From Stentor roeselii (lineage: Eukaryota > Ciliophora > Heterotrichea > Heterotrichida > Stentoridae), in assembly GCA_006503475.1 (NCBI GenBank), contig RSEH01000200.1, positions 1 to 64,000 of the forward strand: a DNA stretch of 64,000 bases, in the 5' to 3' direction. The notes under the pieces were generated by a model. The model searched no databases, was not told the DNA's origin, and saw only the letters and a program-made list of their open reading frames with translations. Numbering within the stretch: the first letter of the stretch is position 1; every line of letters starts with the position of its first letter. Position numbers and translations under genes: made by a program. Below, one piece after another: positions 21,251 to 64,000 of this stretch.

Positions 21251-22075
21251 ATGAATAAATTTCTGATTATTTTTCAACAACTTGAGGAAAATAACCAGGA
21301 TTCGGAAAAAATTGAGATACTTAAGAGGATGATTGGTCGGTTTAGATGTTATAGGATGGAAAAGGAACAGCAAGAGGATGAATTTAGAAGGGATTCGTTT
21401 AGGAACTGTATTATTGTCGAGTCGCCTACTTTGCATAATGGATCATTTGCTTCTGTTAGGACTCCTGTGAGAAAACCTGGGAAACATTTTACTTTTTTTA
21501 GCAAGAAGCAGACCTGTATCACTTAATCAGACCGTCCAGAAGAACTAGAGTTAATCAAGTCCTCATTCAAACAACTAGTAACCTTACACCACCCCAACGA
21601 AAACATGCAAGAACAAGCGAAACTCCACCTTCCACATTTCACACAATTCCTACTAGACTGTTCAATAGTTTCTCATCACTTCATGTCCCTGATGCTTCTT
21701 CCATTGGGAAAAGAAAAATGGATAACAATAGAAAAGTTTATCCTTTCAATAGAAAGCATTCACAAGATGTCCTTCGAAAAAGCTTCTTTTTTCTATCAAG
21801 AAAGAGACTCTTTGTTCAAAAAAAATGCAGTTATTCAAAAAATGATCTGTAAGAAAAATTCAGTTTTCTTTAAAATGGTTGAAAGTTACTGTGGAGGATC
21901 TCTCGAAGAGTCAGACCTCGCATTCGTTTTAAGCATGGCTCTGAAAGACAAGAAAAAAATCAATGACTTCAGAGCTCTTGCCAAGAAAACCTTCGACCGC
22001 CTCGAAGCCAAGTCAGGAAAAAGAAAAGATCTGATAAGTTCTGAAGAGTTTTTGAATTTATTAATCAACACTTAA
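21251..22075 (+). CDS. hypothetical protein, 269 aa, with one 15-nt intron
   Basis: CDS is join(21251..21515, 21531..22075). The first frame ends at TAA within the intron; splicing joins KKQT to YRPEELELIKSSF and restores one helical protein. It begins 7 nt after the GAF gene. The C-terminal half is alpha-helical and charged (MALKDKKKINDFRALAKKTFDRLEAKSGKRKDLISSEEFLNLL is vaguely EF-hand-like, but the calcium ligands are not convincing). Function is not recognised. The strongest skew reversal of this region falls at the intron: G-rich before it, C-rich after. An alternative would be two separate small ORFs, but the exact 15-nt GT...AG unit argues against that. Confidence 0.8.
21516..21530 (+). 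other. 15-nt spliceosomal intron (phase 1)
   Basis: The sequence gtatcacttaatcag contains the TAA that would end the first frame. Removal gives a continuous 269-residue protein. Confidence 0.88.
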
Positions 22076-22168
22076 AACTTCTGATAAACTTTTCTTTATA
22101 TTCTTCAAACAGTTAAATATTTTTCATCAACTTTCATTCAACCATCTCTATTCAAGGAGTCTTAATAA

Positions 22169-22804
22169 ATGAATCCCAACGGTGGTGAAGAAGAATACGA
22201 CTTTTTATATAAAATTGTCCTTGTAGGGGATTCAAATGTGGGAAAAACCAACTTGATTTCTCGGTATATCAAAAATACCTTACCTAAGAACTCTAACCCA
22301 ACTATTGGAGTTGAGTTCGCCACTCGCGTTGTTCCTCTCAAGTCGGGCGGGACTGTCAAAGCTCAGATCTGGGATACTGCAGGGCAGGAAAGGTATTATG
22401 CTATTGTCTCTGCTCACTACAGAAGAGCCATTGGGGCATTGCTGGTTTATGATGTGACCAACTTGAAAACATTCACTAATGCTGAAAAGTGGATTAAAGA
22501 ACTCAAGAGCAAGGCCGAGCCCGACATAGTCATCATGCTGGTTGGAAACAAAATCGACTTAGTAGAAAAAAACCCTGAAAAGCGAGAAGTTGCTGTCCAA
22601 CAGGCTGAATCTTTTGCGGCCAGGGAAAAACTTTTGTTCATTGAAACCTCAGCCTTCACATCACACAAGGTGAAAGAAGCATTTGAAACTTTATTAGAAG
22701 AAATATATAAAGGAACTAGGTCTAAGAGCAATAAAAGGCCAGATCACGGAGAAAACCTAGACCCAATGGCTCAACCTCCCAGATCCTCCGGATGCTGCGC
22801 ATAA
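22169..22804 (+). CDS. RAB11: Rab11-family small GTPase
   Basis: 211 aa, of typical Rab length. The P-loop GDSNVGKTN lies at 20-28, the switch I stretch PTIGVEFATR near 44-53, WDTAGQE at 68-74 with the catalytic Gln, VGNKID near 125-130 and ETSA near 155. EYDFLYKIVLVGDS and TIGVEFATR are hallmarks of the Rab11 branch. The C-terminus SGCCA carries two cysteines one residue from the end, suitable for double geranylgeranylation. Rab11 directs recycling endosomes; in ciliates it also serves food-vacuole and contractile-vacuole trafficking (family knowledge). The start sits in CTTAATAAATG. Nothing seems missing. Confidence 0.95.
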   Translation: MNPNGGEEEYDFLYKIVLVGDSNVGKTNLISRYIKNTLPKNSNPTIGVEFATRVVPLKSGGTVKAQIWDTAGQERYYAIVSAHYRRAIGALLVYDVTNLKTFTNAEKWIKELKSKAEPDIVIMLVGNKIDLVEKNPEKREVAVQQAESFAAREKLLFIETSAFTSHKVKEAFETLLEEIYKGTRSKSNKRPDHGENLDPMAQPPRSSGCCA

Positions 22805-22882
22805 ATAGTTATAGGTTATTCGGTATCATAAATTTAAAAGTCTCTCAAATTTCGTGTTGACTGATAAATGGCCCAATAATAA

Positions 22883-24739
22883 TTAATAAAAATACTCCTC
22901 CATCATAGAATACACATCTTTCGCCATTTTCGAATGCTGACTTAATTCCTCATCAGACTCTTCACTTTTCCCTCCATTTCTCTTGAAACTATCACTAAAA
23001 GCTTCCTCATCCTGCAATTTTCTTTCAAGAAAGTAAATTTTTTTCTCATAACAATCCTGAAGTTCTTTAAGTCTAATCATTTCCTTCTGAATCATAGGAA
23101 TAAACTCCTGTGCATAAGGATGTTTTATCCACTGATCATGAATTTCTTTTTCTCTTCTCGCGATTTCAGCTTCTTTTTCCGCGATTCGTTCTTCTCTCAT
23201 CAGCAAAGATTTCGTATAGGCCAGATTTGAGCAGTCGTTTTGGATCTTTGATGAACGTCTGTAAATTGGAGGCTTTGGCAAGTTAAAGTTTTGAGTTTTT
23301 CTATTCGTTGAAAAAGAATTTTCTATGTTTTTGGGACTTGAGCGCAAGGATTGAGAAATTTTTAAGGAAAGGTTTGACTTGACTTGCTTTATGTCTCGGG
23401 TCGGGTCTTCGAGACTGTCACCTGAAAGTTCGAAATTTTGGAAACTTTCTGAGGATGATGAGGAGTTACTGTTTTTGGTTACTTTTATTGATGGAGATAG
23501 ATTGATTGTCCTGGATGTGTACATCGTCGGTTTAACATCGATACTCTTATTAATTTCTTCAATCTTATCATTGATAACATTCTTCATCTTTTCCAACTTC
23601 TTCTTCGACTCCTCAAACTGAGCCTGGTCAGCCAATAACTTTTTTTCTCTCTCCTGAAGAGCACGAATCGAATCCTGATACTGAAGATTCAACCTTTTTA
23701 AATCCTGACTGCGAAAATTAAGTTCTCCTTCTTGTTTAAGAACATTTTTCAACTTAGTCCTTAGATGATTATTCATAACCTGAGTTTCAGCATTTTGCCA
23801 TTCAAGGGCCCTACAATTAAATTCACATTTTTTAAACAAATTTCTAAATTTTTTGCTATTTTCCCAAATTTTCCAGTCATTTTCTCCATTTTCAATTTGC
23901 CGAAAATCATAAATCTCATCATTTTCCTTAAAAATTTCCTTCTCACAAAACTCTAAAACCTTCAAATTTTCACTTTTTTCTCCAATTTTCCTATAATTAA
24001 AAAAGCCCCCTTTTTCAAATCCATTGCAATAAACTTCATGAAATTTTTTTTTCATATCATTTTCAAGTCTCAATGCAAATTTTTCCATAAAACTTTTGGG
24101 AATAGCAGCATTTTTCCTCAATTCAATCATTTCCGAAGTGATTTTTTCCTTTTCACAATTCCATCGAAACTCTTCAGGAAACATGATTTGTGCAAGTTTA
24201 TCCTTCGTAGGAAATTCAAATCCAAAAACATGAAAATAAAAAGAAACATTGCAAAACTTCAAGTGTCCAGAAAAAGTTTCTCCAGATTCAACTTGTTTGA
24301 TGATATTTTTTACTTTTTTTTCAAGGTGGTAAAGTTCTTTGATGTGAATTTCTTCGCCATGCAAGACGCTTGCGGCTTCTGAGATGAAACTTGAAGGATT
24401 TTCAGTCAAGTTGAGTGTTTCAGTTGTTTTCATAGCAGCTGAGCGGATATCTTCAAGTTTCATGCAAAGTTCTGACCATCGTTGAAAGAACGGGTTTGAA
24501 ATCAAGGAGTCTTCATTCAGGTCTCGGTCGTCAGGTTCGAGGTATAAGTCAAGGTTTTCATTTCCAGTGAAAAAAGCAGGTCGAAAGTCGTCAGAGATTT
24601 GAGAGTCTTTTTGTAGATGCTTGTTTTTGTTTATCACGCTGATGACTTTGTCGTTCAACTGGTCCAGGCGGGTTTCAATGGAACTTCTGAAGTTTTTTTT
24701 AAATCTTGAAGCAGTGTCATCCATAATAATCCTAAACAA
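22883..24739 (-). CDS. hypothetical coiled-coil protein, about 618 aa
   Basis: Not recognised. Either Met1 or Met6 (MDDTASRFKKNF, at 24724) could be the start; the second gives a more usual soluble N-terminus. Residues ~330-420 (LKRLNLQYQDSIRALQEREKKLLADQAQFEESKKKLEKMKN) and ~510-590 (LLMREERIAEKEAEIARREKEI...YEKKIYFLERKLQDEEAF) are strong coiled coils, separated by a Ser/Asn-rich linker. The C-terminus is HSKMAKDVYSMMEEYFY. There is no catalytic motif or membrane segment. It converges on Rab11 with 78 bp between stops. A cortical or basal-body structural role is possible but not shown. Confidence 0.82.
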   Translation of the reverse strand: MFRIIMDDTASRFKKNFRSSIETRLDQLNDKVISVINKNKHLQKDSQISDDFRPAFFTGNENLDLYLEPDDRDLNEDSLISNPFFQRWSELCMKLEDIRSAAMKTTETLNLTENPSSFISEAASVLHGEEIHIKELYHLEKKVKNIIKQVESGETFSGHLKFCNVSFYFHVFGFEFPTKDKLAQIMFPEEFRWNCEKEKITSEMIELRKNAAIPKSFMEKFALRLENDMKKKFHEVYCNGFEKGGFFNYRKIGEKSENLKVLEFCEKEIFKENDEIYDFRQIENGENDWKIWENSKKFRNLFKKCEFNCRALEWQNAETQVMNNHLRTKLKNVLKQEGELNFRSQDLKRLNLQYQDSIRALQEREKKLLADQAQFEESKKKLEKMKNVINDKIEEINKSIDVKPTMYTSRTINLSPSIKVTKNSNSSSSSESFQNFELSGDSLEDPTRDIKQVKSNLSLKISQSLRSSPKNIENSFSTNRKTQNFNLPKPPIYRRSSKIQNDCSNLAYTKSLLMREERIAEKEAEIARREKEIHDQWIKHPYAQEFIPMIQKEMIRLKELQDCYEKKIYFLERKLQDEEAFSDSFKRNGGKSEESDEELSQHSKMAKDVYSMMEEYFY

Positions 24740-24746
24740 TTAATAT

Positions 24747-24948: not shown

Positions 24949-27621
24949 ATGCAAAAAGACCTTCCGATTTTCCAGGTTTTCTCAAAAAAATCTGGTTTTT
25001 TTTCAAGACCCTTGTCAAAGTTTTCACCTCTTCAATCGATATGCTCAAGTTGCGAGAAGTATTTTTTCTTATCAGAAAGCGGTCAAGTTTTTATCTTATC
25101 TTCAGGAAGTATTTCAAGACTATCTCTTCCCGTGAAAATCCGAAAGATCTGCGGAAGTAAAGAAAGTGTATTTTTTTTACCAGATCAAGGACTTTACTTC
25201 CAAGGATACGATTTGTTGTCTTCAGAGTTTTCTGCTTTTCCAGCTCTTGTTGAGAGTTTTGGCCAAGTGCCTTTGAAGGACGTGAGCCTTGGACTGACTC
25301 ATGCTGCCGGCATCGATGATGCCGGGACTCTTTACATCTGGGGAGGAAGTTATGGAGTTCCTCGGGGGGTCAGCAAGGCCTTCACTTGTTCAAAGGTGCT
25401 TTGCGGTGACTTTCTGACGGCAGTTGCGACGTCAGGAGGATATTTTTACACTTATGGCTGGTTTAACACCCTGGATTCAACTTTAAGTGCTTTTTCCTTC
25501 CCTGAGCTGGAAAAGTACTTTGTGATTGACTTTTGCATTGGAAATAACTTTTGCGTTGTTTTCAGTGATGATGGAACTGTTGTTGTTTTTGACTCGAGTC
25601 ACTGTCTTCTGCATTTGAAGAACTTGAATGGCTTTCGCAGTGCTTATGCGGTTTCGAATGGACTTTTCGTGTTTACTTTGAATGCGGTTTATAAGTGGAC
25701 TGGCAATGGGATCCGTGATTGGGTGTTAGAAGTTTTAGTGGACAGGGGGAATGCCAGGGTGTTAGGGTGTTACTTGAACTCCTTGCTTGTACAGGGAGAA
25801 ATTGACTGGGAAGTAAAAACAGAACTAGGAAAAAGTGAGTCTTTTGAAAAAATCCTGTCACCGAAAAGTTTGACTACTGAAAAAAAAGTCTATTCTCAGT
25901 ATTTTCCACAAGATAACAGCTTTAATAAGATTCTTGAATATCGAAAACAACATAAAATAGCGGGTCGGATTTCTCAGTTTGTTCAACCGCTTTGCTTACC
26001 ATGGCTTAGATTTGCTTGGGAACAGCTTTGGAGGTTCAGTCAGATTAAAAAGTTGCAGAGTAGGTCCAGGGCTTTGTCACAGTTGCCGGTTCTTACTGCA
26101 AAAGTTATACAAAAAGCGATTTATCTTGATTTTTCTTTTGCTTTTGAAAAAATTTTCAGGTTTACTATTGCGCAGGTTAGGGAAGAAGCTGAGGATTTTG
26201 AGATTAATGTAAACAAGGCTAGGAGTAGAAGAGAGAAATTTTTTGAATGCTTTAAAAAGCTGAAAAATAAGGAAATTGTTAGATATGGAGAAATTTTCAT
26301 AGGGTCTATCAAATTTTTACTGAAAATCATGAAAAAAAGAGAAAATTCCATTAAAAAAATCTTTATTTACGCGAAAAAGGCAGATCGAAGTGCTGTTTCT
26401 TTAAAGTTCTATAAATGGCTGTTAATATACGAGCGGTCTTTAGACCTTTTTAAAGCCTCTCACATATTTTCTCATCTTTTTTTAAAGAAACATGGCGGAC
26501 ACGCCATGCGACTTCTAAAGTCTTATCATTTTTACCGAAAATTCCAACTAAGCAAGTTAAAAAGTGCGATATTATTATTATACAAAAGGCGCTACATCAG
26601 TTCAATAATCAAGCCCTTCAACAAATGGTCTCAAATCGGTATCAAGTCCTCAGTACTCAAAGAAAAATCCCTAAGTCTCTACAAGTCCTTAGCCAAAAAC
26701 ATCTACTCAGTTCTTCATTTAAAGCTTCGATCATCTTTAAAGTTTTCCTTTTCCCATCTCCTTCAAAATTCCCTGCATAAAAAACGTGTAAAGCTTTTTC
26801 GAAACCCTTTCCTTTACTTCTCGACAGTATTTTCTAAAATCATCTGCCGTTTAAAGTTCTCAACGTTTTCCATTCTTTCAAGAACACGTGAAAAAACAAG
26901 TTTCACGATTAACCTTGACTCATCTGGAAGACTTACAAGTTTGGGCTTCGTGATAGAAAAAATTTACTCAGAACAACTGAGACACGCTTTTGAAAAACTG
27001 GAAATTTCTGCGAAATTGAAGAAAAAATTAAAAAAAAATGTAAAGAATGAAGATTTTCATGAACAAACTCTTACTTTTTTCAATTCTCCTCCTGATGACT
27101 ATCAAAATCCTTTTGTTTTAAATCAGACTGTGCCCAAGTTGCAGCTTGGAAATGTTGAAAATATGAAAAAACCGCCGATTTCTTCGAGAAATTCTAAATA
27201 TTATGTCAAGGTCAAACCTAAACCTCCTTCTAGGTCTGGATCTTTCACTGCTAATGATAATCGAGAAGACTCTTTGTCTAGAAGAAAAAATTATGACAAC
27301 CAACTTAGGAAAAAAATTAAAGATTTGGATAAAACTTCTCAGAGACATAATTCGGTTAAAAGTGTTGAAAAGTTACTTGCGAAAAAACCACCGAAGAGGA
27401 AGTATATTGAAAATAGAGGTGAAAGAGAGACTCCTAAGAATAATGAAGAGTTTTTTAAGGTTTCTTTAGCGGTTTTGGGAATCAGGAAGTTTTTTGAAAA
27501 AAATGAGTTTACACTTTTAATGTCGACATTTAAGATATTGAAAACCTGTTTCAAGTACTCAAAAAACCCATACTCCCGTTGTTTCCGATACTCCCCAGAC
27601 AAATCCAATATTTTTAACTAA
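24949..27621 (+). CDS. RCC1-like propeller fused to a W/K-rich helical region, 890 aa
   Basis: Residues 1 to about 300 resemble RCC1 repeats: VSLGLTHAAGIDDAGTLYIWGGSYG, VLCGDFLTAVATSGGYFYTYGWF, FCIGNNFCVVFSDDGTVVVFD. Residues about 345-640 are a long run of basic aromatic helices (RFAWEQLWRFSQIKKLQSRSRAL, FYKWLLIYERSLDLFKASHIF, IKPFNKWSQIGIKSSVL) that look like Sfi1-type centrin-binding repeats. The last 220 residues are Lys/Arg-rich and disordered. RCC1 propellers act as exchange factors or binding platforms; Sfi1-type helices bind centrin in contractile or basal-body structures, which would fit a ciliate. The RCC1 part is fairly sure; the Sfi1 comparison is inference. Confidence 0.75.
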   Translation: MQKDLPIFQVFSKKSGFFSRPLSKFSPLQSICSSCEKYFFLSESGQVFILSSGSISRLSLPVKIRKICGSKESVFFLPDQGLYFQGYDLLSSEFSAFPALVESFGQVPLKDVSLGLTHAAGIDDAGTLYIWGGSYGVPRGVSKAFTCSKVLCGDFLTAVATSGGYFYTYGWFNTLDSTLSAFSFPELEKYFVIDFCIGNNFCVVFSDDGTVVVFDSSHCLLHLKNLNGFRSAYAVSNGLFVFTLNAVYKWTGNGIRDWVLEVLVDRGNARVLGCYLNSLLVQGEIDWEVKTELGKSESFEKILSPKSLTTEKKVYSQYFPQDNSFNKILEYRKQHKIAGRISQFVQPLCLPWLRFAWEQLWRFSQIKKLQSRSRALSQLPVLTAKVIQKAIYLDFSFAFEKIFRFTIAQVREEAEDFEINVNKARSRREKFFECFKKLKNKEIVRYGEIFIGSIKFLLKIMKKRENSIKKIFIYAKKADRSAVSLKFYKWLLIYERSLDLFKASHIFSHLFLKKHGGHAMRLLKSYHFYRKFQLSKLKSAILLLYKRRYISSIIKPFNKWSQIGIKSSVLKEKSLSLYKSLAKNIYSVLHLKLRSSLKFSFSHLLQNSLHKKRVKLFRNPFLYFSTVFSKIICRLKFSTFSILSRTREKTSFTINLDSSGRLTSLGFVIEKIYSEQLRHAFEKLEISAKLKKKLKKNVKNEDFHEQTLTFFNSPPDDYQNPFVLNQTVPKLQLGNVENMKKPPISSRNSKYYVKVKPKPPSRSGSFTANDNREDSLSRRKNYDNQLRKKIKDLDKTSQRHNSVKSVEKLLAKKPPKRKYIENRGERETPKNNEEFFKVSLAVLGIRKFFEKNEFTLLMSTFKILKTCFKYSKNPYSRCFRYSPDKSNIFN

Positions 27622-31830: not shown

Positions 31831-32633
31831 TGTTGGGATTATTAGGGTGTTAACCGAATCAATCAGCAGATTGAAGATGAATGGGTTTTTTAGGTTTGAT
31901 TTGGATGAATAGTGGAATTTTTTGAGGTGTATTAAATTTTTAGTTTATTTCATATTTTTGAGCTGAAATTTTATTTAAACATCTTCTATATAATACTTTT
32001 TAAGATACCCTTGTCAAAATAATTTCATAAAGTGCTTCAGCCTTTACTCCTTCTCGTGAAAATCTTGTAATTAAACCAAAAATCTAATATTTTAAATTTC
32101 CTGACTACTCTCAAATCATTTATCCCATTCAAAATTTTTTTTTTTAAAATAACCAATAATATAAATTTTCCTAATAATAAAACTCTTGCATTGGCTTAAA
32201 GTTTAATCAATTTACTATTTAATGTAATTTCGATAAATCTCGTGATTATCTGTGAAGCTTAATAAACATAAATTTTTATAAATTTTCTATTATAAGCCAG
32301 AAGTGTTTCCAAGTGTACAGATCCCAGAGATACGAAAAGATTTTCTCAGTTTCAGAGATCTACTTCATAATTATGTAAACGATCTTGAATTCAATTTTAT
32401 CACAATTATTACAATATTCTTAATAAGAGAAAAATTTAATTTCAAGATAGCTGGTAACCGAGTTGTTTTTGGTTGAATGGATAAGGATTGGAACTCTAAC
32501 ATTAAGTAAATAATCATTTGATTTTTGTTGAATAAATATTTTTCATGAATAATCACACATTAATACTTAAAACTCTAAAACAAAAAAGATCAATTTTGTC
32601 CTATTTATTATCTTACCAAAAGACCTTAATAAA
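31831..32633. other. intergenic region between divergent genes, no gene seen
   Basis: 803 nt between the coiled-coil gene (minus) and the tandem kinase gene (plus). The left part is G/T-rich on the + strand and the right part A/T-rich. I find no convincing ORF, tRNA or repeat. It presumably holds both promoters; the kinase start lies in CTTAATAAAATGG. Confidence 0.5.
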
Positions 32634-46256: not shown

Positions 46257-46431
46257 CAATTATTCACTGTTATAATATCTCTAAAATCCTTCAAATTTTT
46301 TCATAAAATTCAAATAATTCTCAAAAAAACCTGAAAAACCTAAAATCCTGAAACTTCCTCAAAATTCCAAAAAACTTTCTCAATTTTCTAAATCTCGCTT
46401 TAATTTTTTTCTAACATTCAAACTAAACAAA

Positions 46432-53186: not shown

Positions 53187-53593
53187 TTAAAAAGATATAA
53201 TGAATGAAGTTTTTTCGATATTTTTTGGAATGTCAAGAAAGATGGGTTGTGGAAAGTTTTGATGTTTTTTATGACTTTAGTGAAAAGTTTTGATTAAGAT
53301 AGTTTTGAGTAAGGTGTAATAATTTTGATATTAAATAGAATTATTTGAGTTGATGGTTATGAATTTTTATCCAGACCTTTATTCTTTGAAATAGTTGAAA
53401 TTTGGTAAAAGAAGAAAGATAATCATGATCAGTTCAACTAAAGCTACACTTTTTCAAGTAACATGCTACTTATAACTATTTCCTTCTCTAAAAACATACC
53501 ACAAGAATTAACTACCATAAATACCCAAAAATGAAATCCTACATCTTAAACCCAACTCTTATTCCTCCTCTCATATAAACCCCTAAACCTAAT
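53187..53593. other. intergenic region with a sharp skew switch
   Basis: 407 nt between two minus genes. At 53221-53280 the + strand has 16 G and 2 C; at 53461-53520 it has 2 G and 15 C. No ORF or RNA gene is visible, so the skew change here is not a codon-usage effect. Confidence 0.6.
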
Positions 53594-56500
53594 TCAAGCA
53601 ATCGACTTATTTAAAGCAGGTAATTTCCTCTGTCTCACCTTATCACTAAGTCCTCTAAACTGATTTTTACCCAAAAGACTCTCATCACCAACAACATTAG
53701 CCAAAATAGGAATAGTATAAATTTCACTTTTACACAAAACCTCAAATTCCGCAGCGATTTTTCCAACATCTTTCGAACTAAGCTCAACAATGAACTTGGT
53801 GATCATTCCAGGTGCGATAGGTCCAGGTCTATAAACAACTCTAACTTCCTTAACAATAGGTTGTTTAACAGCGAACCTAACAAGAGTACAGTCTTCATTT
53901 TTCACCATGAGTATTAAAGAAGCGACTTGTCCAACCATGACATTTCCGAAGTTTGCAGTATCAGGAGTGATTTCAAGAAGTCTCTTAAACGGGTCGTTTA
54001 CATAGTCTTGAATAAAAACTGATTTTGATAGTCCAGGGTTGCTTTCGCGTCTGTGAGTTATTGAGTTCGGCTGCTTGAATATGCTTCTTCGGGTCTGAGA
54101 TATGGTTTTTATCTTGGTTTCAGTCATCAGGTCAGTGGACAAGTACTTCAAGTTTATCTTCGAAGTCGCTGGAGAAGTGCTGCGAAGGGCTGAAACATGA
54201 GGAAGAGACTTTCGAAGCCCTCCGATTAAGTCAAAATTCATGTTCTTTGACATGTGGTACTCTTCTGATATTGTTCTTTCTGAGGACTCTCGTAGTTTTT
54301 GAAGCTTTTCAACCTGGGAATAAACGCTGGGACCTGAAACTGGCTTTAAGACCACTTTTTTACCTGCTTTTGAGGTTAGAGAGATGAATGGGTTCTCTTC
54401 GAAGGACTCGTTTAGGTCTTTTTCGTCTCTTGAGGTTTTGGCTTCGCGGTCTTTTGAAAGTTTGATTTTTTCTTGGGTTTCTTTTTCAATTTTTTCTAAT
54501 TTTTCCATTTTTTCCTGGTTTTCTGATGTTTTTTGAATGGTTTCAGAAGACTTTCTAGGAATTTCCGGAGATTTCACATAAGACGCGAAGGACAAATCAA
54601 CACCTTCAGGTGACTTGAAGTAGTTAAAAGAATGCATAGTTGAGCTAACACTTCGACTATCAAAAGTAAATTTTCTTGACTTTTCATGTCGAACAGGACT
54701 TTCACAGACCCTTTCAAGTCCTTCTTCAACTTTAACTAGAGTTTTTTTACGTTGAGAAGAAAATCCATGAGTTTCAACGAGTTTCCTGATGATTTCTTCA
54801 GGGTCATTTTTTTCAGTCTTAAGTTGCAAAGACTGGCTTCTCTCTCGAATCAATTTCAAATGAATTCGAAAAGAAACAAGAGAAAATTCTGAACATCCAA
54901 ATTCTCTGTCTTGGTTTTGCTTTGACTGCCATTCGATGTAATTTTTGTACTTTTCTTTGAAATTTTCTCTTCGGTTTAAGTCGAATTTCGGGTATTTTTC
55001 GAAGAATCTGAAGCCGAGATAAGTGGTTTCATCGGATTTCAAGAAGACTGGAGATGGTTTAATCATTTGAAAGACTGAAGAATATTCGTAGTTGGAGAGA
55101 AGACTGTCTGGAAGATGACCTTTTTCAAGGCTTTGCTTGTTTAAAGGACGGTAAAAAACGGAAAAAGTCTTGTCTTCAACCTGGCATTCAAGTTTTTCAC
55201 TTGAGGGACTCAGGAAGTTTTTTAAATTTTCTGATGAAAAAATTTCTACACCTGAACCTGACTCGTCTATCGCGAAAAGACGAGGAAAATCGTTGAAAGA
55301 GTTACTTTTTTGAATTATTTGTTGACTGGGTTCTTGATTCAGTCCTATTTGAAAAGAGTTTCCTAAAGAGTCTTCACAACTGATAGTAGACATTGACAGG
55401 TCAATAACAAAATCAGATAAAACCAGGAAATTTTTGTGAAAAGTGACTTTTTCTTGTTGATTTTTCAGGAAAATTTCAATTTTTTCATTATTTTTTCGTA
55501 TTTGAGTCATTTCATCAACAATGACCAGATATTCAAGATTTTTTTTTATTTTCACAGGTGCATAACCAGGAGATTCAACCAGGTACTCCTCCTGCGTAGT
55601 AAGAATTTTCGTCCCGTCATGAAACTCAACAATAGTATGTCCTGAATAATATAAAATAACAGTCCCATCATCCCGAAAGACAGTCCTAAGTCCAGTTTTC
55701 GGATCAGTGACTGAAGCGCAAGGCACAAGTCCGACTTCCCTTCCTTCACTGAAAAGATTTCCTTTATTATTAGTGACGACCCACTTTCCATCATAGTTCG
55801 AAATATTTCCATTTGCGTATAAGACCTGAATGGACCCGTCTTCAAAGTACCGAATGACTGAAGCTTTTCCAGTCACCACCCTGTTCTTTTCAAAAGACCC
55901 TCCAAATGAAACCCTTTCTTTCATGCGAGTTTCAGTCAACTCAAGTAGCACTTCTTCCAAGGTGCTTGAAATGACCTGTCCTTTCGATGTGAGTTTCACT
56001 GAACATAAATCAGCAGAAATGCGATATCCTGGAATTACTGCAAAAGCTTCATTGCCTGAATCTTGAAGACCGAAAATCCAGTCTTTAAACAGCCCAATAC
56101 ATCTTTTTAGTGACTTCTGGGCGACTGAGTACTTTATTTGCTTTAAAACTCCTCCGTTGGATGGGTAAAGATTAAACTCTTGGCTGCTGATTTGACCGAT
56201 TTTTAACTCGTCAACGTCGTAGAAGTCTGAAGGGTACATGTTGAATTCTTTCCAGTCCTGGAAGTTGGGTCTTATTTTTTTTGAATGCTCCCAGAGAGTG
56301 CTGGGGACACCTGAAGAATCATATAAAAATCCAAGTAATGTCACTCCGTCATGTTTACAAAACACAACATCAGGCATGTATTTTAAAAGACTTTGAATAG
56401 TCGCGTTGAGAACAGGTCTTGAAAGACGTTCCCCGTATTCCCTGTCAAGGATGATATTTTTCCCAGTCTTACCTGAGATAACCTCTTCAAATCGATTAAT

Positions 56501-57874
56501 GATCATCATCCACCTGAGCTCTTGTTTTTCAATAGAAAAGAAAAAATTTGCATTATCACTGGAAATCACCTGATTACTTCTATCAGCAGTGATTGGAAAG
56601 TTAAAATTATCATACAAGTCATAAAGTGCCTGACAAGCAGGCCGGCCTAGAAGGCCGGCGGTGGTATAAGGAAGTGCTAAGAAGTCATTTTCATTCAGGA
56701 GATTTTCAGACTGAAGAATTTCGATTTCAGCAGAACTTTGAAGGTAATTCTGAGAGTTGAGCAGTTGTTCAACGAGACAAACTAAAAAATACTCAACAGT
56801 GGCAGCCTCGTCAGCAGTTTGAGAGAAGAGATGGTCGAAGACTCGAAAGTCCCAAGCTTTGGCTGCATCGTCAAGACTTGGCAGGTCAAAGTGCCTTCCG
56901 AATTCGCCGTTATAAGAAACAGTTGTGTTTGAAGTGGTTTCTAAGACCTCATGAACGATATATGAAGGAAATAAAGGCCTGCAGGGTGCTGTTTCTTTCC
57001 AAATCAGGTATTTTACATAGAGAACTCCAGTTTCTAAGATGTTTTTCACTAGTTCTGCGATGAATAACTTGCGAAGGTCGGGTTGAGAAGGTGTTTGGAC
57101 TTCTTCTTTCACTTCTTTCACGGTTTTTTTCATTGTTTTGCTTGATCTTAGCTGTTTTTCTGTCTCTTGTTGCATTGTTGACTCGGTTTTGTCGAGTTTT
57201 GTTTCTTCGAGCTTTGCAACTTCGCTTTCCATTCCTTGGTACTTGCTTAGGTCGTAGGTTATTGTTTTTTCTAAAAAGGTTCTTAACGGCGAGTTCTTGT
57301 CTGATTTTTGGAAGGCTTCTCGGAAGTGAGGAAGAATTGAACTTGAACCTGGTGATGACTCATTTCGGATGTAGAAAAAGAACTCGATGTTTATACCGTA
57401 TCTTGCTGTTGTTGTTATTTCTTCGTAGGTTTTAGGGAAGTTTAGCAAGATGTAGGTCCTGTCAGGTTTAATAGGATAGTTGTTAGGTACAGAGACTTCC
57501 GTAAAGACCTGAGAAGTCTGCCTGGATTCAGTCCTCTGAGGTCGATCTTGAACTTCAAGCCTCTGAATTTGGTCTCTTTTTGCTTTTCTCGCCTGCAAGT
57601 CCATAGAATTAACTTTTTCACTCAAAGACTTGGCCAAGGTCTGAATAGGAACAGTTGCTTCAGTGATATTGTTGGCAATATACCCTTTTTCTTTGCTGTA
57701 GTTGAATAAATCCGACCTGGTTATCAGCGAAAATTGAAAGATAGGAAATAATGAAGCTACTTCTGAGAGACTCGCATCCCATTCAATCATTGTGAAGACT
57801 GAAATCCAAGGAGGCAGGGTGGAAAGGTCAATGTCTTCTTCTTGCTTTTTCTCTTCTTTGCGCTTAGCTGGCAT
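53594..57874 (-). CDS. SPAG17: SPAG17/PF6-like axonemal central-pair protein, 1,426 aa
   Basis: The N-terminal part (MPAKRKEEKKQEEDIDLSTLPPWISVFTMIEW, ILLNFPKTYEEITTTARYGINIEFFFYI) and long middle fit the SPAG17/PF6 layout. Residues ~680-780 contain the family's beta-rich sheet-like repeats (SVIRYFEDGSIQVLYANGNIS, FRDDGTVILYYSGHTIVEFHDGTKI). The C-terminus (~1310-1400) is an MSP/ASH domain (LEITPDTANFGNVMVGQVASLILMVKNED, RPGPIAPGMITKFIVEL). PF6 is a scaffold of the C1a projection of the central pair and is required for ciliary beating. At 1,426 residues it is well below the roughly 2,200-2,300 of animal and algal proteins. Confidence 0.82.
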   Translation of the reverse strand: MPAKRKEEKKQEEDIDLSTLPPWISVFTMIEWDASLSEVASLFPIFQFSLITRSDLFNYSKEKGYIANNITEATVPIQTLAKSLSEKVNSMDLQARKAKRDQIQRLEVQDRPQRTESRQTSQVFTEVSVPNNYPIKPDRTYILLNFPKTYEEITTTARYGINIEFFFYIRNESSPGSSSILPHFREAFQKSDKNSPLRTFLEKTITYDLSKYQGMESEVAKLEETKLDKTESTMQQETEKQLRSSKTMKKTVKEVKEEVQTPSQPDLRKLFIAELVKNILETGVLYVKYLIWKETAPCRPLFPSYIVHEVLETTSNTTVSYNGEFGRHFDLPSLDDAAKAWDFRVFDHLFSQTADEAATVEYFLVCLVEQLLNSQNYLQSSAEIEILQSENLLNENDFLALPYTTAGLLGRPACQALYDLYDNFNFPITADRSNQVISSDNANFFFSIEKQELRWMMIINRFEEVISGKTGKNIILDREYGERLSRPVLNATIQSLLKYMPDVVFCKHDGVTLLGFLYDSSGVPSTLWEHSKKIRPNFQDWKEFNMYPSDFYDVDELKIGQISSQEFNLYPSNGGVLKQIKYSVAQKSLKRCIGLFKDWIFGLQDSGNEAFAVIPGYRISADLCSVKLTSKGQVISSTLEEVLLELTETRMKERVSFGGSFEKNRVVTGKASVIRYFEDGSIQVLYANGNISNYDGKWVVTNNKGNLFSEGREVGLVPCASVTDPKTGLRTVFRDDGTVILYYSGHTIVEFHDGTKILTTQEEYLVESPGYAPVKIKKNLEYLVIVDEMTQIRKNNEKIEIFLKNQQEKVTFHKNFLVLSDFVIDLSMSTISCEDSLGNSFQIGLNQEPSQQIIQKSNSFNDFPRLFAIDESGSGVEIFSSENLKNFLSPSSEKLECQVEDKTFSVFYRPLNKQSLEKGHLPDSLLSNYEYSSVFQMIKPSPVFLKSDETTYLGFRFFEKYPKFDLNRRENFKEKYKNYIEWQSKQNQDREFGCSEFSLVSFRIHLKLIRERSQSLQLKTEKNDPEEIIRKLVETHGFSSQRKKTLVKVEEGLERVCESPVRHEKSRKFTFDSRSVSSTMHSFNYFKSPEGVDLSFASYVKSPEIPRKSSETIQKTSENQEKMEKLEKIEKETQEKIKLSKDREAKTSRDEKDLNESFEENPFISLTSKAGKKVVLKPVSGPSVYSQVEKLQKLRESSERTISEEYHMSKNMNFDLIGGLRKSLPHVSALRSTSPATSKINLKYLSTDLMTETKIKTISQTRRSIFKQPNSITHRRESNPGLSKSVFIQDYVNDPFKRLLEITPDTANFGNVMVGQVASLILMVKNEDCTLVRFAVKQPIVKEVRVVYRPGPIAPGMITKFIVELSSKDVGKIAAEFEVLCKSEIYTIPILANVVGDESLLGKNQFRGLSDKVRQRKLPALNKSIA

Positions 57875-58328
57875 TTTTATAACTGGCTTAATTTGAATCA
57901 GGTTTGGCAGGATTTTAGATAAGGAATGATTAGAGGTTGGAATTTTTAGAGGATTTTTCAGTGAGTTGATTGAATTTTATGGTTTTGATGTTTTTATTTT
58001 TAGGTGATTATGTTTTTTGGGTTAATTATTTGAAGTTTTAAGAGAATTTGGTTTGAATTATTTAAATTATTTTTTGGGTGAGAATGTGATTGAGTTTTGA
58101 AGAAATAAATATGATTTAGAAATAAGAATAATGTACTCGTAAAATTTTCAAAATTATTTTAGGTTTGCCTAAGCCTTTTAAAATGATAATAAATAAGATT
58201 ACTCAATATCTAGTTTAATTATATTTCCTTAACCTAAAAATACTCAAACCTGAATCAAGATCCCTAAAAATACTAAAACCTAATCTAGACCCCTAAAAAT
58301 ACTTAAATAAATAATAAAAAATATCAAA
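57875..58328. other. divergent intergenic region with a sharp skew switch
   Basis: 454 nt between the SPAG17 start (minus) and the AKR start (plus). 58021-58080 has 13 G and no C on the + strand; 58261-58320 has 1 G and 12 C. The right end contains a short tandem repeat (separate entry). No ORF seen. Confidence 0.6.
58233..58309 (+). repeat. 29-30-nt tandem repeat, about 2.6 copies
   Basis: Units start at 58233, 58263 and 58292, each with CCTAAAAATACT followed by a variable A/C-rich part containing ACCTGAATC or ACCTAATCT. It ends 20 bp before the AKR start codon. It could be a promoter repeat or replication slippage. Confidence 0.75.
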
Positions 58329-59222
58329 ATGAAACTAAACTCTGGCTTCATCATGCCGAATCTAATCTTCGGTACCTACAAAATAAAAGGCTCAGAAGTG
58401 ATTCCATGTTTAACATCAGCTTACAACTCAGGTTTCCGACACATCGACACAGCAAGTCTCTACGAAAACGAAGAAGACATAGGATCATGGTTAGAATCAA
58501 GTAAAACTCCTCGAGATTCTCTTTTTTTAACAACAAAAATATGGCCAACAGACTATCGTCGAATCTCAGAGGCCTGTTCAACTTCTTTAAAAAAGCTTAA
58601 AACGTCTTATCTTGACCTGCTGTTGCTTCACTGGCCAGTATCACTGAAAGTAAACGCAAGTGCATCAACAATTGTTTCTTTTGACCACATCGACCGTTTT
58701 CCTTTGAGTCAAGCGTGGAGTCAAATGGAGGACCTTTTATCTTCAGGTAAAGTGAGAAGTATTGGAGTGTCTAACTGGAATGTTTCACTTTTAAATGACT
58801 TGTTGAGTACTTGCAGGGTGCCTCCTGCGTGCAATCAAATAGAAATGCATGCTTATAACCAGAAAAAAGAACTTATTGCTTTTTGTCAGGCTTTTCATGT
58901 TGCTCCTGTTGTTTATCGAGTCATTTTTCGACCTCCCGCCAATGAATTTAAATATAAACTTAGGGAATCGCCTTCTGATGATCAAGTTATAAGGAATCTT
59001 GCTTTGAAATATCAGGTTTCCCCTCAACAGCTTTTAATCAAATGGGCATTACAGAGAAATTGTGGTGTTGTTATTAAATCTGCAAATCCGATTAGAATTA
59101 AAGAGAATTGGGATGCTCAGAAGTTTTGTATATCTGATAGTGATATGCAGATAATAAGCGAAATCCCGCACCGAGGAGTATTCACAAACACAGAGAAACT
59201 ACTCGGTCTTTATATCGAATAA
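58329..59222 (+). CDS. aldo-keto reductase, 297 aa
   Basis: The catalytic tetrad is complete: Asp40 and Tyr45 in HIDTASLYENE, Lys70 in TTKIWP and His101 in LLLLHWP. GKVRSIGVSNW, NQIEMHAYNQKKELIAFC and the C-terminal VVIKSANPIRIKEN (cofactor loop) complete the TIM-barrel signature. It reduces aldehydes or ketones with NADPH; the substrate is not predictable. The usual TPLG/YSPLG stretch after strand 7 is altered to APVVYRVIF, which may change the active-site loop. TAA stop; the next gene starts 33 nt later. Confidence 0.95.
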   Translation: MKLNSGFIMPNLIFGTYKIKGSEVIPCLTSAYNSGFRHIDTASLYENEEDIGSWLESSKTPRDSLFLTTKIWPTDYRRISEACSTSLKKLKTSYLDLLLLHWPVSLKVNASASTIVSFDHIDRFPLSQAWSQMEDLLSSGKVRSIGVSNWNVSLLNDLLSTCRVPPACNQIEMHAYNQKKELIAFCQAFHVAPVVYRVIFRPPANEFKYKLRESPSDDQVIRNLALKYQVSPQQLLIKWALQRNCGVVIKSANPIRIKENWDAQKFCISDSDMQIISEIPHRGVFTNTEKLLGLYIE

Positions 59223-59709: not shown

Positions 59710-60921
59710 ATGGAACCTGGCAAGCTGGAAAATCATGAAATCAGTCAAGTGCTTGATTCTATTCTGACGGGGCCGGAGTATTTGCCAATTAATGAGCATA
59801 TGAATCAGTTTGAAGATGCTTGGGAAGAAGCTCAGGCTGGAGAAAATTGGTCACATCTTGACTCAGCATGGAAAGAAGCGGAAAATCATCACGAAAATAA
59901 TCCCTGGGTTCAGTCAAAACAGATGAGCCAAGATGAGTTTTGTGAGTTTTGGCAGCATTTATGGCCATCCGAAAACTTCCAAGAGATCGAATACACCTTC
60001 GACGAATCAAACCCATTCCTAGGCCGTTCAGACCTTTCAGAATGTCTCTCATCCTCTCTATTATCCGGTCAAATCTCAGAGAGTATCCAAATCCTAGAAG
60101 CCCTAGTCCTAAAGGACCCTTCAAGCTCTGAATGTTGGATCCTTCTCGGCAAGTTAAACGCTGAAAACGACGAAGACAACCATTCAATATCCGCTCTAAA
60201 GCGTGGATATTCGCTGAGCCCATCAGACCCAGAAGCAAAGGCAGCTTTAGGAATCGGTTTAATAAACGCCAAGCAAGGTGAGAGCGCAATGCATCTTTTA
60301 ACCTCTTGGCTCTTATCAAACCCGATCTTCCAGTCCCTGACCTCGTCAAGCGTAGACTTAAAGGACCGTACAATAGACCTGCTGATTCAAGCAAGTAGTT
60401 TAAAGCCAGAAGACTCGAGTCTGCAGCAGGTCCTGGGCTCCTTGTACTTCATGATGAAAGACTACGACTTGGCAGTCAGTGCCTTTGAGAACTCAGTGGC
60501 TCTTGACCCGCAGAATTATTACTCTTGGAATCGACTCGGAGCGGCCTTGGCTCATCAAGGGCAAAATGAAAAAGCGGTCCAAGCTTATCATAAAGCCATT
60601 GAAATCAGGCCGAATTATGTCAGGGCTTGGGCAAATTTGGGAATCGCTCATGCAAATATGGATCGAATGGTTGAAGCTTGTCAGTTTTACTTGTGTGCTT
60701 TGAAATTGAATCCTAAAGCTTTTCATGTTTGGAATTATTTGGTTACTGCTTTTACTTGCTTGAGTAAGGGATAGGTAGGAAGGTTTGATTTGATGGAAAT
60801 GGTGAAAAATTTTGATGTTTTGAGCTTTCAGAATGAGTTTCAGTTTTTGCAGTTTTTAAATTTGAATGATGGGAAAGTTGCTGAGGAATGGGTGGAAGAG
60901 TTTGGGAAGTTACATAATTAG
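59710..60921 (+). CDS. PEX5: PEX5 peroxisomal import receptor, one 15-nt intron near the 3' end
   Basis: CDS is join(59710..60763, 60779..60921), 398 aa. The C-terminal TPR array (from ~125) contains NPFLGRSDLSECLSSSLLSGQISESI, the 7-TPR spacing and YYSWNRLGAALAHQGQNEKAVQAYHKAIEIRPNYVRAWANLGIAHANM, the best-conserved PEX5 stretch. Splicing adds RRFDLMEMVKNFDVLSFQNEFQFL, the usual terminal helices, so the frame's early TAG at 60774 is within the intron. The N-terminal part is short (~120 aa) with two or three W-rich motifs (FEDAWEEAQ, LDSAWKEAE, FWQHLW). PEX5 binds PTS1 cargo and docks at the peroxisome. Its stop overlaps the stop of the convergent CK1 gene. Confidence 0.93.
60764..60778 (+). 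other. 15-nt spliceosomal intron (phase 1) in PEX5
   Basis: gtaagggataggtag, containing the in-frame TAG. Splicing restores a canonical PEX5 C-terminus. Confidence 0.94.
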
Positions 60922-61976
60922 ATTATTGTGCATTTTGATTTTAGGTCTTCTTCTTTGGATGGAGGGAGTTGAGGGTTGCTTGTGTCTTGCAGTTCGACCA
61001 TACTTTCATCTTGAACAACTTTACTCTCATTCAAAAGGTTATTATTCCTAAGATCTTCAATCAACTTGCTCCTAAGAGGTTTATTTTTCCGATAATTCCT
61101 CACAGTCCAGTCAAAAATAAAATCATTCGCCATTTTTTCCTTACTAAGCAAGCTCTTAACAAGTCCTTTCAAATATCCATAATCCGGTTTTTCTTCAAAC
61201 TTAAGCGATCTCGAATAGCTAAAAATCGCTAAAATTTCCTGAGGCAGTTCATTCAAACTTCCATCAACAGTCAAATTTTTCTTCATTTCTAAGATTTTCG
61301 CATATTTTTCTTCTTTACTTCCAGTCAACCCCTGCCAAGGCAGACATCCATTCAACAAATAAGCAAGAACATAAAACAAGCTTTCAATATCATCTCTTCT
61401 CGAAACTTCAATTCCCATGAGTCCAGCAGCAGAAGCATATCGAGCAGTCCCAAGTAGTTTTTTTCCTTGTTTGATTGGAATATGAGCTAAACTTTTAGTA
61501 TCTCTAAACTTTTTCGACAGTCCAAAGTCGACGAGGTAGATGACATGGCTTCTCTGTCCAAGACCTATGAGGAAGTTTTCAGGTCTAATGTCTCGATGAA
61601 CGAAGTTCTTTCCATGAAGTCCTTCAATACGAGAAAAAAGCTGCTCCGCAATCATCAAAACCGTTTTCAAAGAGAATTTTTGGTTGCAGTAAGTAAAAAG
61701 ATCCTCAAGTGAAGGACCGAGAAGGTCCATGACCATGACATTGTATTCACCTTCACTTCCAAACCAAAAAACATTAGGAATTCCTTCAACATCCTGAAGC
61801 ATTTTCAAAATTTTCGCCTCATAAGAAAGTTGAAGTTTAACTACATCCACCGACTCCAACTTCACAGCAACTTCTTCCCCATTTTGAACATTACAAGCTT
61901 GAAAAACCTCAGAAGACGTACCTTTCGCGATTCTCCTTCCAAGCCGGTACTTTGATCCAACTCTAACCTCCAGCAT
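60918..61976 (-). CDS. divergent CK1 paralogue with C-terminal CaaX box, 352 aa
   Basis: Similar to the CK1 at 46432 over the whole kinase domain. It keeps VAVKLE (Lys39), DFGLSKKFRD (Asp150), LGTARYASA and IEVSRRDDIESLFYVLAYLLNGCLPWQGL. Differences are telling: the glycine loop is IAKGTSSEVFQ (CK1 copy: [11 protein letters not shown]), and the catalytic loop is HRDIRPENF with Arg131 in place of the usual Lys. Activity may be altered or lost. The tail ends in SKCTII, a CaaX box, which I infer to be prenylated for membrane anchoring; in animals CK1 gamma is membrane-anchored by palmitoylation instead. Confidence 0.92.
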   Translation of the reverse strand: MLEVRVGSKYRLGRRIAKGTSSEVFQACNVQNGEEVAVKLESVDVVKLQLSYEAKILKMLQDVEGIPNVFWFGSEGEYNVMVMDLLGPSLEDLFTYCNQKFSLKTVLMIAEQLFSRIEGLHGKNFVHRDIRPENFLIGLGQRSHVIYLVDFGLSKKFRDTKSLAHIPIKQGKKLLGTARYASAAGLMGIEVSRRDDIESLFYVLAYLLNGCLPWQGLTGSKEEKYAKILEMKKNLTVDGSLNELPQEILAIFSYSRSLKFEEKPDYGYLKGLVKSLLSKEKMANDFIFDWTVRNYRKNKPLRSKLIEDLRNNNLLNESKVVQDESMVELQDTSNPQLPPSKEEDLKSKCTII

Positions 61977-61987
61977 TTCTAATAAAA
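61977..61987. promoter_or_regulatory. 11-bp divergent inter-start region
   Basis: The start codons of the CK1 paralogue (minus) and DNAI4 (plus) are separated by 11 bp (ttctaataaaa). Any shared promoter must overlap the coding sequence. Both gene calls are strong, so the spacing is secure unless one true start is further in. Confidence 0.6.
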
Positions 61988-64000
61988 ATGCAGCCGACGC
62001 AATTAAAAGCTCCTTCTCAAAACAAAATCCCGATGACCAGTTCTAAAAAGTTACCGGTCAACACAGGGACAGTGAAAAACACGGCAACTTCAGGGAAAAA
62101 CCGCATTTCAAAGAAAACTCGTGGAAAGTTTTCAACAACTACTCAAAACCAGACAAATACCAAAGAAATCTTTGTTGACAAGGACGGAAACGAAATCGAT
62201 GTCACTCCAAAGCCTTTAATTCTCAGTCCTGAAGAGATTAAACAAGAAAAAAAAGACGAGTCTGAAAAAAGTTCAGTCAAAGTCGCTTCAAGTGCCTCTG
62301 AAAAAAGAGACGACGCGCCAAGTGGGTCTTTTTCAAGAGACCGCTCGGAAGCTGGAGCAAGTTCAATTTTAAAGAGCTCTGATCAAAGTGAAGTCCTTTC
62401 AGAAGCCAGTGATGATACCGGCAAGGCTCGCGTAACTGAAGAGCCGAAAGACGAGTATAAAGGACTTAAAGATGAGGACCTTGACAAGTTCATTGAAATT
62501 GACTTGAGAGAAACAGAGACTTTCACGATTTTTTACATTCCAAGCATCGCGGTTAGTGCAAAAGCGGAAAATCGTGAAGAGGTTGATAAAGCGAATGCGG
62601 AGTATAAAAATTTGTTGAAGGAAAAAGTTGGAAGTGATAATTTCAAGGGAAGACCTGCACAGACTTTGAATTTGATGCAGAAAATAAAGGAATGTTGCAC
62701 TGATACTATCAAAAAACATGAGTTTGAGTGTGAGGTTACTAATTGGATGCTGCATGATGCTTTTTTGGAAAATCCGAAACCTAATCATGAGATTGTTGCT
62801 GATTTGTTTGAACAGGAAGTTAAGGCGAGTTTAACTGATCAGCTGAAAAATAGAGGGACTTTACTTGATCCTGAGAAAAGTTTAACTGAAACTCATAATA
62901 GTGTTAGTGTGTCACAAAGCCAAGTAACCAACAAAGAAACAACAAACTCCCGAGTAAAAAGTTCCAAACGAATCGACAAAAGCAGTCACAGCGTTCAATC
63001 AAGTTCATCAATAACCCAAAGCAAGCACTCACAAGGTTCGGCTCGTCAAGAAGTAGAAGTAACTCCATTCAAAGCTCCAGAAAACATCCTTCTTCCAGAG
63101 TCTCTTCTAAACAAATTCAACATAGTAGAGCGAATCCTGACTCAAAACCGTTACCTTGACCAGCAGATCCTTTACCGAAACTACCCAAAAGTCGAATTCC
63201 AAAAAAACGTCGAAGAAGAGAAAAACCAAGACAAGGGTGGAATCGGTGCCCGTTTCAAATACGCGATAAAAAAAGACGTAGAAAAAAAAGAAGAGGTTAA
63301 AGAAGAAGAAGTAGATAAAGACTCCCCACACATGGTAGACCTTTTCAAATACACCTGCACTGAAGTCGCTGACCGACTCGTCAGTTGTGCGGATTGGAAC
63401 AGTCCAAATCCGGACTTATTAGCAGTTTCATATGGAGAATACAATCACTTATCAGAAAGGGTTCAAAACAAGGACTCTTTTTCACATAAACCTGGACTTT
63501 TACTGTTTTGGACACTTAAGTCACCGAAGTTCCCAGAAAGGATCATTCGAGCACCTTCTGGAATTATTTCTTGTCACTTCTCGAAAAAGAACCCTTGGCT
63601 TATCGCGACTGGCAGTTGTGATGGAGTCGTCGCTATTTATGACTTGAGGAAAAAAGGAGATAAACCTGCTGCGGAGTCAAGTCAAATGCTTGAAAAACAT
63701 ATTGATACTGTTTGGGAAGTCAAGTGGCATGATCAGGGATCGGAACATGGAGAAAATTTGATATCGATTTCTAGTGATGGAAGAATTGTTGAGTGGAGTA
63801 TTAAAAAAGGACTGGAATGCAGAGATCTTATTAATTTGAAAAAACCGACTAATCCGAATCAGAAGGAAGATAAAGAAGCTGCTGTTTTTAGGAATTCGGT
63901 TGGGTTTTCAGTTGATTTTCCTAGGGATCAGTATATGCTTTATCTGGCCAGTACTGAGGAAGGGACTGTTCATAAGTGCAGCTTTAGTTATAATGATGAG
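61988..64000 (+). CDS. DNAI4: DNAI4/WDR78 (IC138-like) axonemal dynein intermediate chain, 5' part
   Basis: The frame is open from ATG 61988 (context AATAAAAATG) to the right edge, 671 codons, and continues outside. The N-terminal ~400 residues are Lys/Ser-rich and disordered, with IDLRETETFTIFYIPSIAV as a short conserved element and FKYAIKKDVEKKEEVKEE. WD40 blades then start: GLLLFWTLKSPKFPERIIRAPSGIISCHFSKKNPWLIATGSCDGVVAIYDLRK, LEKHIDTVWEVKWHDQG and LISISSDGRIVEWSIKKGLE, the last a hallmark of WDR78/IC138. IC138 is the regulatory intermediate chain of inner-arm dynein I1/f and is controlled by phosphorylation, for which CK1 is a known axonemal kinase. Confidence 0.88.
   Translation, partial: MQPTQLKAPSQNKIPMTSSKKLPVNTGTVKNTATSGKNRISKKTRGKFSTTTQNQTNTKEIFVDKDGNEIDVTPKPLILSPEEIKQEKKDESEKSSVKVASSASEKRDDAPSGSFSRDRSEAGASSILKSSDQSEVLSEASDDTGKARVTEEPKDEYKGLKDEDLDKFIEIDLRETETFTIFYIPSIAVSAKAENREEVDKANAEYKNLLKEKVGSDNFKGRPAQTLNLMQKIKECCTDTIKKHEFECEVTNWMLHDAFLENPKPNHEIVADLFEQEVKASLTDQLKNRGTLLDPEKSLTETHNSVSVSQSQVTNKETTNSRVKSSKRIDKSSHSVQSSSSITQSKHSQGSARQEVEVTPFKAPENILLPESLLNKFNIVERILTQNRYLDQQILYRNYPKVEFQKNVEEEKNQDKGGIGARFKYAIKKDVEKKEEVKEEEVDKDSPHMVDLFKYTCTEVADRLVSCADWNSPNPDLLAVSYGEYNHLSERVQNKDSFSHKPGLLLFWTLKSPKFPERIIRAPSGIISCHFSKKNPWLIATGSCDGVVAIYDLRKKGDKPAAESSQMLEKHIDTVWEVKWHDQGSEHGENLISISSDGRIVEWSIKKGLECRDLINLKKPTNPNQKEDKEAAVFRNSVGFSVDFPRDQYMLYLASTEEGTVHKCSFSYNDE

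Follow-up and report, generated by a model that had tools for sequence, protein, structure and literature searches.

Along a 64,000-nucleotide stretch of the Stentor roeselii genome (contig RSEH01000200.1, positions 1-64,000; hereafter the window), the composition of one strand repeatedly switches from G-rich to C-rich, which raises the question of what fixes the direction of these switches and what process could have left them. A first-pass annotation had described them, between positions 21361 and 62960, as one-directional on the + strand, with slower recovery in between, independent of gene orientation, and perhaps the work of a strand-asymmetric mutation process. That observation is partly confirmed and its interpretation partly supported: the switches are genuine, they also occur beyond the window, and we show that resets from keto-rich (G+T) to amino-rich (A+C) DNA are favored between genes, whatever the orientation of those genes.

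Recurrence and polarity of the switches

We sampled 309.6 kb from an assembly of 44.4 Mb in 522 contigs: contig C116 in full (89,577 bases), whose bases 1-64000 form the window, together with 22 other loci of 10 kb each. Genes were defined mechanically as open reading frames (ORFs) of at least 130 amino acids beginning with ATG, with introns ignored; 169 such ORFs cover 69% of the sample, and their starts and stops stand in for gene ends throughout, so that distances are not meant as distances from transcription starts. Steps were scored with 120-base flanks around a 60-base gap at thresholds of 3 and 4 standard deviations (SD), using Markov sequences as controls.

The G and C counts given for twelve 60-base lines in the annotation were exact in 11, the exception being 58021-58080, which holds 12 G and 17 A rather than 13 and 16. 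At 4 SD, the window contains 14 G-to-C steps and 2 C-to-G steps, beyond the roughly 0.5 each way expected by chance from Markov controls. The 22 other loci contain 39 and 18, respectively, and the rest of the contig 8 and 6 (controls across sets, 0 to 0.5 each way). Thus, the uniform direction claimed for the switches holds for the strongest steps. It dissolves at 3 SD, where counts are near balance both in the window (35 versus 31) and in the 22 loci (95 versus 93), so the asymmetry belongs to strong steps. A different estimate of the SD gave 13 versus 2 steps at 4 SD and 33 versus 23 at 3 SD in the window. T/A steps by themselves were unpolarized in the window (14 versus 14 at 3 SD).

Reverse complementation turns a G-rich-then-C-rich order into itself. 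A G-to-C step therefore looks identical from either strand, and a constant direction along the + strand is uninformative about the chemistry of that strand, to which the polarity had been tied. The informative feature is that the G-to-C change is sharp and the C-to-G change gradual, a property of the DNA when read from either side. This sharp fall with slower recovery was borne out by a hidden Markov model (HMM) run on intergenic and fourfold degenerate sites and by a signed, segmentation-free cross-correlation, the product of T-for-C at position x and A-for-G at x + L. Since the emissions and transitions of the HMM are tied by strand symmetry and partly circular, we rest the claim of polarity on the cross-correlation tests. 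The cross-correlation was +0.026 to +0.030 (standard error, SE, 0.002) for L of 300-480 bases, with T-for-C on the left and A-for-G on the right, compared with −0.005 to +0.004 (SE 0.004) for L of −300 to −480. Overall, the standing composition follows the order C-to-T left, G-to-A right with a z of 6.5.

For individual loci and outgroups, polarity was compared with a null of random swaps within 3-kb chunks. Summed polarity was positive in the window (p = 0.0005), in the interval of the first-pass annotation (p = 0.0105), in the rest of the contig (p = 0.016) and in the 22 other loci, where none of 2000 swaps was as large; taken singly, 21 of these 22 loci were positive, the exception being L030. 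Bases 1-21360 alone gave p = 0.0605. When passed through one pipeline with two outgroups, the genome yielded a z of 6.7 (7.1 with all bases), compared with −0.6 (−0.2) for E. coli and 1.0 (0.9) for phage T4.

Polarity differed by place, with a z of 5.0 in intergenic and 1.7 in coding DNA. Within genes it ranged from 1.5 to 2.6 by subset, and from 0.8 to 2.3 after removal of gene means, a subtraction that by itself depresses autocorrelation. A third-moment test was significant between genes (z of 2.9-3.9) and null at fourfold sites. Given the weak within-gene values, the polarity belongs mainly to gene gaps and is faint inside genes, while blocks of alternating sign are present in both.

The keto/amino axis and its blocks

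We next described the variation along two axes, keto minus amino (K-M) and purine minus pyrimidine (R-Y). In 200-base intergenic windows, K-M variance was 1041 against 200 expected under a Markov model (5.2-fold), and R-Y variance 461 against 294 (1.6-fold). At fourfold sites, with the codon family fixed, the corresponding values were 0.0862 versus 0.0356 for K-M and 0.0470 versus 0.0351 for R-Y (ratios of 2.4 and 1.3), while the same two ratios were 1.36 and 1.31 in E. coli and 1.23 and 1.24 in T4. G-C and T-A skews were positively correlated both between genes (+0.39, −0.21 expected) and at fourfold sites (+0.32, 0.01 expected). This excess of keto/amino over purine/pyrimidine variation at intergenic and fourfold sites supports the strand-asymmetric, mutation-like process that had been proposed.

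Fourfold K-M also varied together with its surroundings. Its correlation (r) was 0.52 with twofold T/C sites, 0.34 with twofold G/A sites, 0.436 with flanking intergenic DNA (n = 172; 0.26-0.38 within strata), and 0.14 and 0.13 with K-M at positions 1 and 2, respectively, of other codons (n = 779). This sharing among codon sites and flanks argues for a transition asymmetry at the DNA level. Keto blocks in the HMM had base frequencies of A 0.326, C 0.077, G 0.190 and T 0.407, compared with A 0.303, C 0.197, G 0.197 and T 0.303 in neutral blocks; thus C is lost on one strand and G is scarcely altered. The depletion of C had odds of 0.17-0.26 across all eight neighbor classes, with no sequence context. 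Taken together, these patterns suggest strand-specific transition mutation.

Blocks are short. K-M autocorrelation was already negative at 400-1000 bases, and at fourfold sites of the 44 genes of at least 1.5 kb it was about −0.027 (SE 0.006) at 480 bases, negative in the contig and the other loci alike. A firm 1.05-kb period was considered and rejected: it appeared in long genes and was absent from genes of 1.5-2.7 kb and from loci outside the contig. The HMM expected about 372 direct keto-to-amino and 270 amino-to-keto transitions, while passages through the neutral state ran mostly amino-neutral-keto (139 and 142, versus 42 and 39 in the other direction). Skewed blocks were GC-poorer than unskewed ones.

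Switches and gene boundaries

The switches had been reported as independent of genes, a view that the junctions do not support. At the midpoints of 147 junctions between ORFs, the mean step was 6.18, whereas 2000 circular shifts gave a mean of 0.04 (SD 1.26) and a maximum of 4.43; 90 gene midpoints showed no mean step. Across the contig and the 22 loci, steps that did not lie deep in ORFs numbered 80 down and 45 up, then 51 and 22, then 28 and 12 at rising thresholds, compared with 24 and 24, 14 and 9, and 8 and 4 for steps deep in ORFs. Likewise, HMM switches between ORFs were keto-to-amino in 118 cases and amino-to-keto in 47, versus 163 and 175 inside ORFs.

This excess tracks gene gaps because the 5′ ends of coding strands are rich in C and their 3′ ends in G. 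Over the 169 ORFs, coding-strand GC skew was −0.17 just before starts. It lay at about −0.03 to −0.05 in the stretch 50-300 bases into the ORF, turned to +0.06 to +0.08 from 400 bases on, reached +0.13 to +0.15 near stops and fell under zero more than 150 bases past them. Restricted to intergenic bases, the skew stayed negative as far as 200 bases before starts and positive as far as 150 bases after stops. On average, 5′ ends and upstream DNA are C-rich and mostly A-rich, and 3′ ends and the DNA after them G-rich and weakly T-rich, the TA change being weak in the averaged gene profile. Tandem, convergent and divergent gaps therefore step alike on average on either strand, and the left half was G-richer than the right in 42 of 53, 11 of 16 and 15 of 19 such gaps, respectively.

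The gradient reaches the first two codon positions: from the first to the last fifth of genes GC skew rose from −0.198 to −0.036 at codon position 2 and from +0.189 to +0.274 at position 1. It may extend to fourfold sites, where K-M was −0.077 (SE 0.031) in the first 75 bases and +0.063 (SE 0.035) in the last 75. A model of composition by gene position, cross-trained between the sets, predicted the skew track with r of 0.25-0.34 (null SD 0.03-0.07). We reject it as a full explanation, since it does not predict the strong steps and captures the track only in part.

Twelve switch sites were re-examined individually: in six the switch is over 300 bases into an ORF, and in the other six an ORF start or stop is less than 180 bases away. 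Positions 21541-21600, placed inside a + gene by the annotation, lie in the gap between ORFs 19768-21243 and 21605-22075. The following switches, which have no strand, were delimited by the HMM.

20911-21400 keto, 21561-22210 amino: step of 55 at 21501, in the gap before ORF 21605-22075 (+)
23291-23520 keto, 23521-24300 amino: step of 43 at 23474, within ORF 22883-24739 (−)
26801-27520 keto, 27521-27750 amino: step of 53 at 27569, 52 bases before the stop of ORF 24949-27621 (+)
31511-31970 keto, 31971-32420 amino: step of 45 at 32009, about 180 bases upstream of ORF 30379-31830 (−)
33321-33810 keto, 33811-34330 amino: step of 45 at 33886, deep in the kinase ORF 32634-35063 (+; Pfam match)
49431-49920 keto, 49921-50060 amino: step of 42 at 49868, past the stop of ORF 48596-49579 (+)
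52841-53420 keto, 53421-54010 amino: step of 63 at 53416, the strongest in the window, in the gap between ORFs 52680-53186 (−) and 53594-57874 (−)
57771-58170 keto, 58171-58580 amino: step of 48 at 58163, in the divergent gap between ORFs 53594-57874 (−) and 58329-59222 (+)
60641-61010 keto, 61011-62000 amino: step of 53 at 61036, about 120 bases inside the 3′ end of ORF 60918-61976 (−)

Profile matches among the ORFs were to WD40, Ras-type GTPase, protein kinase, HYDIN/CFA65-like Ig and VSP-like families. By themselves, these matches would indicate a eukaryote, probably a protist with flagella. The ORF at 53594-57874 (−) encodes 1426 amino acids with a flagellar PapD-like and a HYDIN/CFA65-like Ig match, a hint of cilia or flagella. 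The ORF at 60918-61976 (−) is a kinase related to one in the opposite orientation at 46432-47460 (+), with 66.75% DNA identity over 400 bases, and a DNA search with 46000-48600 listed 28 other genomic sites, of which the nearest matches at 80%. A single ORF of 3985 amino acids at 7838-19795 (−) has Giardia VSP-like (E = 6 × 10−21) and furin-like cysteine-rich matches, and its 3′ part is overlapped by an HMM-neutral, GC-richer stretch at 6001-10660. A WD40-repeat ORF occupies 33-3335 (+) at the contig start; the stretch 1-3400 has 239 genome matches, with 77-83% identity in the seven that exceed 2 kb, and many repeats some 145 bases long. ARAGORN found no tRNA genes in the window.

Candidate causes and their weight

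We favor a picture in which strand-asymmetric blocks, each a few hundred bases long, would make up the sawtooth as a mosaic, one strand being C-poorer and T-richer than the other, with keto-then-amino boundaries lying preferentially in gene gaps. We infer that the asymmetry arises by mutation more than by selection. Transcription may be the likeliest source, with strands differently damaged or repaired as transcription begins and ends, a proposal already made for unicellular fungi. Transcription-linked strand-asymmetric mutation with resets in gene gaps is our first choice, although a tentative one that we hold at somewhat less than even confidence; recurrent breaks come second and RNA-level selection third. 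The balanced alternation inside long genes would require a second contribution independent of genes.

The closest precedent comes from unicellular fungi, in which, in the accessible part of the report, C prevails on the coding strand around the 5′ end and promoter and G around the 3′ end and 3′ flank, with intermediate values mid-gene and amino-acid positions affected too (PMC3315797). The Stentor genes share these biases, including the effect at codon positions 1 and 2. That text leaves mutation versus selection open, and its authors used the mostly flat AT skew along fungal genes against C-to-T deamination; here, by contrast, TA skew covaries with GC skew between genes and at fourfold sites. 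Blocks of alternating sign within genes are also not among the fungal features described in that part of the report. What goes beyond the fungal precedent is variation mainly along the keto/amino axis, at synonymous and intergenic sites, alternating in genes and crossing gene edges. In plants and fungi, C exceeds G on coding strands around gene starts and upstream of them (PMC555766, in part); that work concerns transcription start sites, and the likeness here is a C excess near ORF starts. At human replication origins, a local mutation process at recurrent sites likewise shapes base skews, but there GC content rises locally (PMC9645720, from the portion available), unlike in the GC-poorer skewed blocks seen here. 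We found no report of opposite gene-end skews outside fungi, nor of gene-end skew linked to breaks, in a search that left subscription papers largely uncovered, so novelty is unproven.

Several results weigh against our first choice. Alternation within long genes is unexplained by transcription: strong blocks of both signs occur deep in genes, which transcription of one strand does not predict. The keto/amino axis does not stand out in whole coding sequence, where protein composition plays a part (K-M 915 versus 227 expected, 4.0-fold; R-Y 856 versus 301 expected, 2.8-fold), and fourfold GC skew by quintile runs from −0.04 to +0.04 with overlapping intervals. Against 65 down and 31 up steps observed, the averaged gene-position model produces only about 2 of each. 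Upstream skews scatter widely, 63% of 116 being negative. Divergent gaps, taken whole, average a step of 0.5 (SE 1.5, n = 27), the first 75 bases of genes with divergent neighbors are unbiased at fourfold sites (+0.009, SE 0.053), and with fixed 200-base halves the GC step is positive in 53 of 88 gaps and 9 of 19 divergent ones, although means remain positive.

A rather unlikely alternative is that recurrent double-strand breaks, favoring gene gaps, are resected 5′ to 3′, and that cytosines exposed on the + strand to the left and the − strand to the right become T. Since opposite strands are exposed on the two sides, this would leave keto DNA to the left and amino DNA to the right on either strand. 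The geometry is that of single-switch APOBEC clusters in yeast, where mutated C lies left and mutated G right and, in the part of the study available, the opposite order is absent or very rare (PMC6786661). The order is the same here, T-for-C pairing with A-for-G 300-480 bases rightward and not leftward, and the in-gene polarity has the same sign, where a gene-end gradient alone would give the opposite; breaks would be expected to act within genes as well. However, as described there, each of those clusters is one event in a sequenced strain that carried an introduced deaminase and showed its motif, whereas ours is a standing composition without a motif, and no clusters appear between paralogs. 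Our paralog comparison covered eight of 23 self-matches (the eight longest once one inverted match within the contig had been set aside), leaving out shorter, mostly tandem-repeat matches. These eight tandem pairs lack strand-coordinated runs of transitions (Stouffer z of −0.9, 0.4 and 0.6; one pair, L004, at 2.4) and hold 916 transitions versus 1012 transversions. As for enzymes, the genome has a Spo11/Topo VI-A type domain, which goes no further than allowing for programmed breaks. The presence of a uracil-DNA glycosylase domain counts against the idea, as does the lack of an APOBEC2-type match in the search for deaminases. Four PF00383 domains were found. The depletion of C in every neighbor class, without a deaminase motif, and the null third-moment test at fourfold sites are further difficulties. 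In S. cerevisiae, meiotic breaks fall at promoters. Despite this, gene-end skew is weak in S. cerevisiae, as in S. pombe, in the accessible part of the fungal report (PMC3315797).

Selection on RNA would favor unstructured A/C-rich leaders and G/U-rich trailers for 3′ processing or structure, with codon choice following. A- and C-rich words are indeed enriched upstream on the sense strand and G/T-containing words downstream, and because A and C do not pair together, the keto/amino axis is the axis of RNA self-pairing. Nevertheless, fourfold sites deep in genes vary on this axis in blocks of both signs and the signal runs on across ORF edges, leaving this explanation improbable. Replication, suggested as a source in the first-pass annotation, fares far worse. 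Leading strands are keto-rich in many genomes, and a fork bias with closely spaced origins or termini would give a keto-to-amino step at termini. In textbook fork geometry, an origin gives the opposite jump, so the sharp change would require termini, not origins, roughly every kilobase. Skew over the whole 89.6-kb contig is 0.003, with no persistent replicon-scale skew, and autocorrelation turns negative within a kilobase, so we consider replication very improbable. We give hardly any credence to chance, assembly artifact or codon usage alone. Weaker steps do run both ways, and codon positions have strong skews of their own, but held-out loci reproduce the pattern, fourfold variation is 2.4 times its null conditioned on codon family, and E. 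coli and T4 show no polarity in the same pipeline; intact long ORFs spanning the blocks make sequencing damage unlikely.

Specific causes were also tried and rejected. A single motif does not account for the switches, upstream DNA showing only general A/C-rich words, and inverted repeats at junctions scored 15.8 against 15.1 for mismatched pairs, with 1 of 59 reaching at least the 99th percentile. C5 methylation was set aside, the depletion not being restricted to C before G, and a search for DNA methylase domains gave no match at E values up to 0.001.

Returning to transcription-linked mutation, transition-axis variation at fourfold and intergenic sites, crossing gene edges, favors mutation over selection. 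The signed cross-correlation provides a measure of polarity that needs little or no annotation (z of 7.1 with all bases). We doubt even more than the break mechanism itself that base composition records recurrent, mostly intergenic breaks whose resection yields C-rich 5′ and G-rich 3′ gene ends, a cause that might also lie behind the unexplained fungal skews. If breaks were the cause, standing base composition would map where the genome breaks.

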